From NCBI GenBank assembly GCA_001797815.1, contig MGQK01000131.1, positions 1,800 through 7,337 of the forward strand: a stretch of 5,538 nucleotides of DNA, written 5' to 3'. Source of the stretch: Deltaproteobacteria bacterium RBG_13_61_14 (GTDB taxonomy: Bacteria; RBG-13-61-14). The position numbers and the translations under genes are program-made. Of the stretch, positions 902 through 4,116 are shown piece after piece (the stretch's first letter is position 1; each line of letters begins with the position of its first letter). The notes below the pieces were generated by a model. It was not told the DNA's origin, searched no databases, and worked only from the letters and a program-made list of their open reading frames with translations.

Positions 902-3475
902 TTGTCTGAATTGCTGCACGAGATTTCCCAACCCTTCCTGATCGTTTTGGATTTCAGCCGGAGCTTGGTGGCGAGTCCGCGGCCCTCCCTTCTCAATCCC
1001 ATGGATTCCTTCTTCGACCTGCTCCAGCGGCTCTTGAGCCATCCTTATATTTACGGGCTCCTCGGCCTCTGGGACATCTACCTCGGCCCAGTGCCCTACA
1101 ACCGCTATCTCCTGGCGGCGCTCCTGCTCCTGATCCCCGCACTCCTGATTTTCCTGGTCTGGTATGTGCGCCGGCCCCGGGAAATCACGCCCTCCCGCCT
1201 GCAGAGCGGAAAAGATCTCTTGCGCGGGGCCAAGCGCGCCGCGAAACAGGGCGACCTGGTCCGGGCCGGCGAGCTTTACGAGATGAGCGAGCGCTACGAC
1301 CTGGCGATCAAGATGTATCTGGAGGGCAAGTCGCCCGCCCGGGCCGGCCAGGTCTATCTCAACCGGCTCAAGGACCCGGACAAAGCCATCGCCCTCTATC
1401 TGAAATACAACCTCTACGAGGGCGCGGCCAAGGCCTGCGTCCAGGCCGGCCGTTACCTGGAGGCCGGACAACACTATGTCAAAGCCAACAAACCCCAAGC
1501 CGCGGCGGAGATGCTGGAGCGGGGCGGTGACTGGCTTCAGGCCGGCGAACTCTATTTCCAAAACGGGATGTTCCGCGAAGCCAGCCGCTGCTTCGGCAAA
1601 ACCCCCAACCACCACCGCGCCGCGGAAAGCTACGAGGCTTATTATAAGGAGGTCCGCGAGGGCTACCACGATATCATCCCCCAGGAGAAAGCCAAGGCCA
1701 TCGCCGACCTGGCGAAAAAAGCCGCCTATTACTACAAGAGCGCCGGCGATCTCTCCCCGGCCGTCTCCATCCTCCTCCAGGCCGGGCTCAAGCCCTATGC
1801 CGCGGAACTCCTGGTGGAACAGACCCAGATTGACCAGGCGGTGGAGTTGTTCACGGAAGCCGGACAGCATCTGCGCGCGGCCGAGGTCTGCGCCGGCGCC
1901 GGCCGGCCCCGGCAAGCCGCGGAAATCCGCGCCCAGTATCACATGAAGCAGGGCCAGAGCCGGGAGGCGCTGCGCTATTATGAGGAAGCCGGGGATTATC
2001 TTTCCGCGGCCGACCTGTATGCCTCCCAGGGCGAGTTGCTCAAGGCCGGGGAACTGTTCCTCAAGGGCGGCGACTCCAAAACCGCGGCCGAAACTTTCTT
2101 CGCGGCCGGCCAACCGGAAAAGGCGGCGGAAGCGTATGAGTCCATGGGTGATCTCACCCGCGCCATCCAGGCCTATGAACAGGCCGGCAACGAGACCAAG
2201 CTCACCGAGCTTTACGAAAAGGTGCAAAACCATTACGAGGCCGGGGCCCTTTACCAAAAGCGCGGCCTCCTGGAAAAAGCGGTCGCCTGTTTTCAAAAGG
2301 TGGGCAAGGAGGACTATCAATTCGCCGAGGCCGCGCGCCGGCTGGGCGATATCTACCTGGAGACCGGCAAGTATCCGCAGGCGCTGGAACGCTACCAGCA
2401 GTTGATGGCGCAAAAGCCGCTGAGTCCCGACAACCTCGACCTGTATTACAACCTGGCAGTTCTCTACGAGCGCCTTAACCAGCCCCAGTATGCCCATACC
2501 GTTTACGGCCGCATCCTGGCCATCCACCCGCATTTCAAGGACGTGGCCATGCGCGAGACCACGCTGCGCCAGCGGATCAGCGGCGCGTCCGCGCCCCCGA
2601 CCGGCTCTTCGCCCTCGCTCGGCCCGCACGATTACACCATGGTCGGCGGCGGGCCGGCGGCGCCGGTGGGCCGGCCCGGAGGCCCGCGCTACCAGATCCT
2701 CCGGGAGATCGGCCGGGGCGGCATGGGCGTGGTCTTTCTGGCCAAGGACTTGAACCTGGGCCGGCAGGTGGCCTACAAGGTCTTGCCGCCCGAGCTCAAG
2801 AACAATCCCCAGTTCGTGGCCAACTTTGTGCGCGAGGCCAAGTCCTTGGCCCAACTCAGCCATCCCTACATCGTCTCGATCTTTGACGCGGGGGTGGAAG
2901 CCGGCAACTACTATATCGTCATGGAATACGTGGAGGGCCAGAACCTCAAGGACCTGCTCACCCGCAGCCGGCGCATCCCCATCACCTCGGGCATCCAGAT
3001 CTTTTCCCAGCTCTGCCAGGCCCTGGATTACGCCCACGGCAAGAAGGTGGTCCACCGCGACATCAAGACCGGGAACCTGATGTGGACCCAGAGCCAGATC
3101 GTCAAGGTGATGGACTTCGGCCTGGCCAAGGTGATCGAGGAGGCGCAGGCCGGCCGCACCACCGTGGCCGGGACCCCTTATTACATGTCGCCGGAGCAGA
3201 CCCTGGGCAAGCCGGTGGACCACCGCACCGACATCTATTCCCTGGGCGTGACCGTTTACGAGACCCTCACCGGCCAGGTGCCGTTCAAGGAGGGCGACAT
3301 CGGCTACCAGCAGATCCATTCCCCGCCCAAGCCGCCCAAAGATCTCAACTCCGAGATCCCGGAAGCCCTTAATAAAATCATCCTCAAGTGCCTGGCCAAG
3401 GACCCGGCCCAGCGCTACCAGAGCGCGCGGGACATCTACCTGGAGCTGAAGGCGCTGGAAAGGCAGAGCGGATGA
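902..3475 (+). CDS. Membrane-anchored helical-repeat/TPR protein with C-terminal Ser/Thr protein kinase
   Basis: This 857-residue protein is a predicted Hanks-type kinase that phosphorylates Ser/Thr on unknown targets. One transmembrane helix spans about 69-89 and is followed by RRPRE, so the positive-inside rule places everything after it in the cytoplasm. Residues 117-247 and 282-467 form a solenoid of 13-residue units. Two ordinary TPRs follow (about 475-508 and 512-545), then a Pro/Gly-rich linker (560-595). The kinase domain (about 597-853) is complete: Gly loop GRGGMGVV 604-611, Lys626 in VAYK, helix C Glu645, Met674 gatekeeper, HRD 718-720, Asn725, DFG 738-740, SPE 763-765, Asp777 and Arg838. 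Thr753, Thr754 and Thr758 in the activation segment are candidate phosphorylation sites. It therefore looks active. TTG at 902 is preferred for its ribosome site and promoter; ATG at 1001 (residue 34) would keep all domains. The C-terminal position of the kinase is unusual. The stop overlaps the next gene. Confidence 0.95.
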   Translation: MSELLHEISQPFLIVLDFSRSLVASPRPSLLNPMDSFFDLLQRLLSHPYIYGLLGLWDIYLGPVPYNRYLLAALLLLIPALLIFLVWYVRRPREITPSRLQSGKDLLRGAKRAAKQGDLVRAGELYEMSERYDLAIKMYLEGKSPARAGQVYLNRLKDPDKAIALYLKYNLYEGAAKACVQAGRYLEAGQHYVKANKPQAAAEMLERGGDWLQAGELYFQNGMFREASRCFGKTPNHHRAAESYEAYYKEVREGYHDIIPQEKAKAIADLAKKAAYYYKSAGDLSPAVSILLQAGLKPYAAELLVEQTQIDQAVELFTEAGQHLRAAEVCAGAGRPRQAAEIRAQYHMKQGQSREALRYYEEAGDYLSAADLYASQGELLKAGELFLKGGDSKTAAETFFAAGQPEKAAEAYESMGDLTRAIQAYEQAGNETKLTELYEKVQNHYEAGALYQKRGLLEKAVACFQKVGKEDYQFAEAARRLGDIYLETGKYPQALERYQQLMAQKPLSPDNLDLYYNLAVLYERLNQPQYAHTVYGRILAIHPHFKDVAMRETTLRQRISGASAPPTGSSPSLGPHDYTMVGGGPAAPVGRPGGPRYQILREIGRGGMGVVFLAKDLNLGRQVAYKVLPPELKNNPQFVANFVREAKSLAQLSHPYIVSIFDAGVEAGNYYIVMEYVEGQNLKDLLTRSRRIPITSGIQIFSQLCQALDYAHGKKVVHRDIKTGNLMWTQSQIVKVMDFGLAKVIEEAQAGRTTVAGTPYYMSPEQTLGKPVDHRTDIYSLGVTVYETLTGQVPFKEGDIGYQQIHSPPKPPKDLNSEIPEALNKIILKCLAKDPAQRYQSARDIYLELKALERQSG
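1250..1642 (+). repeat. Protein-level tandem repeat, block 1: ten 13-residue TPR-like units
   Basis: Residues 117-247 of the kinase protein divide into ten consecutive units starting at 117, 130, 143, 157, 170, 183, 196, 209, 222 and 235. All are 13 residues except the third, which has 14. The consensus is G-D-x-x-x-A-A-E-L-Y-x-x-A: Ala at position 6 in all ten units, and Tyr or Phe at position 10 in eight. The spacing from turn Gly to Ala (5) and from Ala to the aromatic residue (4) is the same as in the TPR A-B turn, so each unit is probably one short helix plus a turn. The codons have diverged, so this is an old expansion and not a recent DNA duplication. Confidence 0.85.
1745..2302 (+). 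repeat. Protein-level tandem repeat, block 2: fourteen 13-residue TPR-like units
   Basis: Residues 282-467 hold units starting at 282, 295, 308, 321, 334, 351, 364, 377, 390, 403, 416, 429, 442 and 455. Only the fifth departs from 13 residues (17, with four extra). Position 6 is Ala in all but the unit at 429, which has Leu. The turn Gly recurs exactly every 13 residues from 351 to 429. A 34-residue non-repeat stretch (248-281, rich in Lys, Ala and Tyr and probably one long hairpin) separates this block from the first. At its C-terminal end it passes directly into two canonical 34-residue TPRs. Confidence 0.85.
3460..3475 (+). promoter_or_regulatory. ATGA stop/start overlap with internal ribosome site, kinase to hydrolase
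   Basis: AAGG at 3460-3463, inside the end of the kinase gene, lies 8 nt before the ATG at 3472. The ATG shares bases with the kinase stop TGA (3473-3475). This arrangement normally gives translational coupling. It also fixes the hydrolase start: earlier in-frame codons lie within the kinase gene and would add a Pro/Gly-rich tail foreign to the family. Confidence 0.8.
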
Positions 3476-4116
3476 TCTTCCATTACCTGGAAACCGGGCC
3501 GCTCCTGGTCAACTGTTACCTGGTCGGCGACGAGGAGACCCGCGAGGCGGTAGTGGTGGACCCGGGCGGCGACGAGGACCGGATCCTGGCCCTGCTCGCG
3601 GAAAAAGAGCTGAAACTCACCCGGATCATCAACACCCATTCCCACTTTGACCACATCGGCGGCAATGCCGGGCTGCATCGGGCCACCGGCGCACCCATCC
3701 TGATCCATCCCGCGGAAAAGGGCATGTTGACCGGGATGTCGGCCATGGCCCGCTCCTTCGGCCTGGAGCAGGAGCGCTCGCCCGCGGCGGAGGGTTTCCT
3801 GGAAGAAGGCGACACCGTGGCCGTGGGCCGGATCGTGCTGGAGGTGCTCCACACCCCGGGCCACTCGCCCGGAGGCATCTGCCTGAAAGTGCGCGGCCAG
3901 GATCTCGTGATCGTCGGCGACACCCTCTTCCAGTTCTCCATCGGCCGCACCGATTTTCCCGGCGCCGACTACCAGACCCTGATCCAGAGCATCAAGACCA
4001 AGCTCTATCCCCTGGGCGACAACTGCCAGGTTTATCCCGGCCATGGTTCGCCCACCTTGATCGGACGGGAAAAAAAGTTCAATCCTTTCTTGAACGAAGA
4101 CAGCTCCTTAGTATAA
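3472..4116 (+). CDS. Metallo-beta-lactamase fold hydrolase, YcbL/glyoxalase II-like
   Basis: This 214-residue protein is a single-domain dinuclear metal hydrolase, the length of E. coli YcbL-type glyoxalase II proteins. The metal ligands are all present: THSHFDH with His56, His58, Asp60 and His61; His131 in HTPGHSPGG; Asp150 in GDTLF; and His191 in PGHG. Further family features are SIGRTDFPG (156-164) and the NPFL tail (204-207). It has no signal peptide and lacks the separate C-terminal substrate-binding domain of classical GloB, so it acts in the cytoplasm on an uncertain thioester, perhaps S-lactoylglutathione or another small thiol conjugate. It overlaps the kinase gene by ATGA and is probably co-translated with it. 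Its stop codon lies within a TATAAT box of the next promoter region. The fold and metal site are certain; the substrate is not. Confidence 0.95.
   Translation: MIFHYLETGPLLVNCYLVGDEETREAVVVDPGGDEDRILALLAEKELKLTRIINTHSHFDHIGGNAGLHRATGAPILIHPAEKGMLTGMSAMARSFGLEQERSPAAEGFLEEGDTVAVGRIVLEVLHTPGHSPGGICLKVRGQDLVIVGDTLFQFSIGRTDFPGADYQTLIQSIKTKLYPLGDNCQVYPGHGSPTLIGREKKFNPFLNEDSSLV

Follow-up and report, generated by a model that had tools for sequence, protein, structure and literature searches.

A TPR-like array of predicted 13-residue helix-turn units in a family of bacterial Ser/Thr kinases

Canonical TPRs are 34-residue repeats of two helices, A and B, and proteins of the IFT/protocoatomer type carry an N-terminal WD40 beta-propeller followed by an alpha-solenoid. 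The helices of SNAP proteins are longer than those of the array described here. Among bacterial kinases, PknB of the PASTA type has an extracellular sensor after its transmembrane helix. Within a partial coverage of the literature we found no description of a 13-residue or half-TPR repeat, and the portion available to us of a review of alpha-solenoid subfolds mentions no such 13-residue repeat (PMC11514114).

The window, by which we mean the whole 5,538-nucleotide stretch of DNA that was analysed, contains a kinase gene that holds a long array of such units (Table 1). The open reading frame list starts this gene at TTG 902. The orthologue L005 begins with MDQVIE... at the position of ATG 1001 and shares the following WDIYLG stretch with the window protein, so the start is probably ATG 1001. 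That ATG also agrees with the orthologues L005 and L006, and the TTG (902-1003) probably lies too far upstream. Other genes in the window are an acyl-CoA dehydrogenase gene, present only in part, a metallo-beta-lactamase-fold gene and coaBC; the dehydrogenase gene and coaBC were identified from their sequences. The metallo-beta-lactamase-fold hydrolase gene (3472-4113) overlaps the kinase stop codon (ATGA) and is followed by coaBC, and this order of the three genes is kept in all three genomes of the order.

Table 1. Features of the array-kinase gene, in window coordinates and in residues of its product.
Feature	Residues	Position	Strand	Basis
Array-kinase gene		1001..3475	+	open frame 902-3475; likely start ATG 1001
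Single predicted transmembrane helix	about 67-90	1100..1171	+	hydrophobic stretch; helix 34-57 in model of residues 34-590
Array part 1: ten 13-residue helix-turn units	117-247	1250..1642	+	unit parse, AF2 helices
Conserved interruption	248-281	1643..1744	+	AF2; same place in relatives
Array part 2: fourteen 13-residue units, one helix +4 residues	282-467	1745..2302	+	unit parse, AF2 helices
Two canonical TPRs, helices of 14-16 residues	476-501 and 513-538	2327..2515	+	Pfam TPR_2/TPR_1; AF2
Ser/Thr protein kinase domain	597-840	2690..3421	+	Pkinase 6.4e-58; motif check

The first-pass annotation had placed the array at 1250-2302, which is correct, and its counts by eye were all reproduced. There are 24 units, with Ala at position 6 in 23 of them, Gly at position 1 in 16 and an aromatic residue (Y/F/W) at position 10 in 18, and the unit consensus is G-D-Y-x-K-A-A-E-L-Y-E-K-A. 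In the unit parse, 22 of the 24 are exactly 13 residues long; the exceptions are the unit at residue 143, after which there is 1 extra residue, and the unit at 334, after which there are 4. The proposed period was confirmed by BLOSUM62 autocorrelation of residues 117-467 against shuffles, which gave z = 9.7 at lag 13, 8.8 at lag 26, 6.0 at lag 39 and 5.8 at lag 52, and residues 282-467 by themselves gave z = 10.6 at lag 13. No DNA tandem repeat of this kind was found in the array region, so the array is not a recent expansion. The high content of Ala and of Glu/Lys, together with smaller peaks at lags 6 and 7 in the window protein, would suit a coiled coil or one long helix rich in alanine, in which the period is an accident of composition. 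However, the period is lost in shuffles that preserve composition (the observed concentration of Ala in one 13-residue phase was reached by 2, 187 and 1 of 100,000 shuffles in the three blocks), a helix-breaking Gly returns at 13-residue intervals, and the AlphaFold2 (AF2) models split the chain into 10-residue helices, all of which makes this explanation barely plausible.

The AF2 model of residues 114-470 (mean pLDDT 88.3, pTM 0.69) contains 25 helices, nearly all of 10 residues and joined by 3-residue turns. A second run on residues 34-590 reproduced the 10-residue helices and gave helices of 14-16 residues for the adjoining canonical TPRs, which serve as an internal control. Helix starts are 13 residues apart in both models, as expected from the helical periodicity that had been proposed from sequence. 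In the interruption, the last helix of part 1 continues into the stretch (model 204-220) and is followed by a second long helix (model 227-247). In the full-length kinase members that were aligned, this stretch of longer helices splits the array at about the same position. Both models are single-sequence predictions, and in the run on residues 114-470 the best of the five models had a pLDDT of 88.3 compared to 64-71 for the others; for these reasons the superhelix as a whole is uncertain, and because the other models of each run were worse, we trust the local helix register and not the global curvature. Foldseek and VIA-align returned TPR, IFT-A, SNAP and Gemin5 structures, with low global TM (0.33 or less in Foldseek) or high rmsd, and a viral fold library gave low-TM matches only. 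We consider it very likely that the array is a pure short-helix alpha-solenoid of about 25 helices, in which the unit is one 10-residue helix plus a 3-residue turn.

An ordinary but degenerate TPR domain of 34-residue repeats, in which 13 is merely the distance from helix A to helix B, would explain why Pfam TPR_2, TPR_1 and other models exceed their cut-offs on the whole protein and why the unit consensus hardly differs from TPR helix B. However, the best TPR matches fall in residues 475-545, beyond the array, and the array helices have 10 residues in AF2, not 14-16. Lag 13 is dominant in the array and a lag-34 signal is absent, and the relatives behave the same way (lag-13 z about 6-14, lag-34 z near zero or negative), whereas canonical bacterial TPR controls from other genomes show the opposite, with lag-34 z up to 20.6 and lag-13 z about 0 in nearly all. 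The array thus lacks the 34-residue two-helix repeat that defines a canonical TPR, and we regard the degenerate-TPR explanation as very unlikely.

The unit itself does carry the consensus positions of TPR helices A and B. When the family unit profile was scored along a consensus TPR, it peaked at residues 15-27, which are helix B (19.9). The only other clear peak, at residues 2-14, ends helix A (3.3, P 0.0035 for a single 13-mer) and is contiguous with the helix B peak, and the remaining 8 residues are the B-to-A' linker. Likewise, each of the canonical TPRs in the window protein divides into two 13-mers, and stretches of 8 and 11 residues set these pairs off. A TPR amounts to an A unit, a B unit and an 8-residue linker, so the array amounts to TPR without the B-to-A' linkers. 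Family units one apart are about as similar as those two apart (0.828 vs 0.845), so that there is no odd/even (26-residue) alternation and each helix can play both the A and the B role. The first-pass annotation had suggested a symmetrised half-TPR, and the array comes close to that idea, given the strong match to helix B, the match to helix A and the lack of alternation. Its suggestion of a distinct, poorly described repeat class fared less well: the long regular array is genuine, but Pfam TPR models match parts of it, the eukaryotic IFT140/IFT172, SNAP, Clathrin, WDR35 and GEMI5 models match the array or its relatives above their cut-offs, and IFT172, IFT144 and IFT140 hold 13-residue units. 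With Pfam TPR-clan matches and TPR, IFT and SNAP fold neighbours, the array belongs in the broad TPR-like alpha-solenoid superfamily, and we read it as the short-helix solenoid of TPR and IFT proteins in a purified variant, not as an unrelated class. To our knowledge, its period would be the shortest in the TPR world.

A loose likeness to IFT and coatomer solenoids had also been pointed out in the first-pass annotation, and it holds for segments of IFT172, IFT144 and IFT140, transport proteins of eukaryotic cilia, in which two to four 13-residue units run contiguously. In one rival reading, the array and the eukaryotic IFT/coatomer-type solenoids have a common ancestor, so that the array would be their bacterial member or source and not an independent purification of TPR helix B. 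An array-only profile run against the PDB placed IFT172 first (1.7e-20) with IFT144 close behind, and the Pfam IFT140/IFT172 model (PF24762) scores 37.6 bits on the window protein against a cut-off of 26.8. Across 60 bacterial genomes at E<=1e-5, PF24762 matched four places, all of them array genes, with no match in 14 control genomes, and the sole match of the Clathrin profile was the array gene L003, a paralogue from the same genome as the window. None of these models is among the best 25 matches listed for each of ten canonical bacterial TPR proteins. Against shared ancestry, designed consensus TPRs scored almost as well as IFT172 (2e-19), so an amplified helix-B consensus alone can yield such scores. 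The WDR35 profile found nothing at E<=1e-5 in the 60 genomes, but it was silent in the controls as well and is therefore uninformative. In addition, the arrays of IFT proteins have interruptions and are linked to WD40 domains; no WD40 domain is among the Pfam matches listed for the array proteins, which have a transmembrane helix and a kinase instead of the propeller-then-solenoid layout. On balance, we think shared ancestry unlikely. The stronger proposal, in which the 13-residue helix is a distinct ancient block that bacteria keep pure in signalling proteins anchored to the membrane, and in which arrays of this kind gave rise to the solenoids of eukaryotic IFT trains, seems to us rather improbable.

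With the array profile, 35 of the 386 genomes sampled gave a match at E<=1e-25; they belong to 24 family-level groups. In 34 distinct proteins the profile and a unit PSSM gave 959 units, and of the 858 spacings between units 669 measure exactly 13. Alanines spaced by 13 residues do not vary among relatives of 25-43% identity. Compared with L005, orthologous units are more alike than non-orthologous ones (identity 0.44 vs 0.25), a gap that fades in the most distant relatives, so at least in close relatives the units have long held their places. The 13-residue register is ancient and well conserved. Most of the 34 members have a kinase with intact motifs and many have an N-terminal hydrophobic helix, and array and kinase divergence are correlated (Mantel r 0.79, null maximum 0.22); deep conservation and co-inheritance with the kinase are thus supported directly, as are the 13-residue register and the predicted helices. 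When a full-length family alignment was searched against genome contigs it found generic kinases, and the array was in none of those 80 loci. The array family was not found in viral contig scans or in plasmid and phage tblastn searches.

Four array members (L009, L142, L143 and L145) have no kinase, and for this reason the array is not solely a kinase regulator. In the same genome as the window, a paralogue on contig C67 (L003:1204-2709) combines a 13-residue array with a cyclic-nucleotide-binding domain, and L011, from another genome, is built likewise. One array-kinase gene is adjoined by a gene with FHA and DUF4388 (L178:8967-9725), possibly a phospho-readout partner. Fusions to two signalling domains, kinase and cNMP-binding, and the neighbouring FHA gene fit a general sensory or scaffold module without proving one. 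Genes for pentapeptide-repeat proteins lie beside or near array-kinase genes in three genomes (L174:4669-6453, L175:4391-6160 and L176:9845-10933).

In the window protein, the transmembrane helix is followed by a basic stretch, RRPREITPSRLQSGK, and because a helix with this basic flank precedes both array and kinase, both are predicted to be cytosolic. A sizeable outer sensor is predicted to be absent. The kinase catalytic motifs are intact (GRGGMG, VAYK, HRDIKTGN, DFG within DFGLAK, and SPE), including the catalytic Lys, the HRD Asp and the DFG expected of a Hanks-type Ser/Thr kinase. Many family kinases have a GD(I/L/V)GYHHIHTPP motif after the catalytic core, which in the window is GDIGYQQIHSPP at about 3292-3340. 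Anti-phage kinase systems (PD-T4-6, MADS) were considered and set aside; the PADLOC matches listed cover the kinase domain only.

We propose that the array either descends from a TPR that lost its 8-residue B-to-A' linker or has the architecture of one, so that the A-to-B turn would be used everywhere. The resulting rod would be cytosolic, with one membrane helix before it and a Hanks-type kinase, its catalytic motifs intact, after it. Topology, ligand binding and activation are all inferred: the rod may bind a partner, either a peptide or another copy of itself, and binding could cluster or reorient kinase domains and so lead to phosphorylation in trans, and the rod may also bring substrates to the membrane. 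That the array is a cytosolic protein-binding or self-associating scaffold controlling kinase proximity and substrate access is, in our estimate, somewhat probable. A short-helix solenoid built like a linker-less TPR, with a scaffold role for the kinase, is as a whole the explanation we favour, and we hold it with reasonable confidence.

The novelty lies in finding so pure and long an array within a conserved family of bacterial kinases, and with a cyclic-nucleotide-binding domain in paralogues; the unit itself also occurs in IFT proteins. A natural, nearly perfect one-helix alpha-solenoid across many bacterial families would offer a simple template for repeat-protein design, and it shows how solenoid pitch can change through loss of one linker. 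It also provides IFT-type solenoids with a bacterial counterpart at the level of sequence; a 2010 study of bacterial membrane-coat-like proteins stated that eukaryotic coat proteins escape sequence-only searches of prokaryotes (PMC2799638). Finally, it gives a widespread kinase family, absent from the literature we found, a testable input domain.

Among known systems, TPR (PF00515/PF07719) is close in its residue pattern: unit positions 1-3-6-10-13 correspond to TPR positions 15-17-20-24-27, and positions 6-7-10 to helix A positions 7-8-11. In contrast to TPR, the array has no B-to-A' linker, a period of 13 instead of 34, 10-residue helices and no A/B distinction. The TPR domains of IFT140/IFT172/IFT144 and WDR35 (PF24762, PF25170) are likewise short-helix solenoids with cross-matches between profiles, but they are interrupted, eukaryotic and placed after WD40 propellers, whereas the bacterial array has runs of 9-11 units with a transmembrane helix and a kinase. 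Profiles of alpha/gamma-SNAP and of the Gemin5 TPR-like domain (PF14938, PF23774) exceed their cut-offs in array relatives, and 159 residues of gamma-SNAP (4.2 A, Z 10.3) and 203 residues of Gemin5 (8.7 A, Z 9.6) align to the array model, although a strict 13-residue period is shown for the array alone. PknB-type bacterial Hanks kinases share the kinase domain, the one transmembrane helix and the full catalytic motifs, but compared to PASTA-type PknB the repeat domain here lies between the transmembrane helix and a C-terminal kinase, both predicted to be cytosolic.
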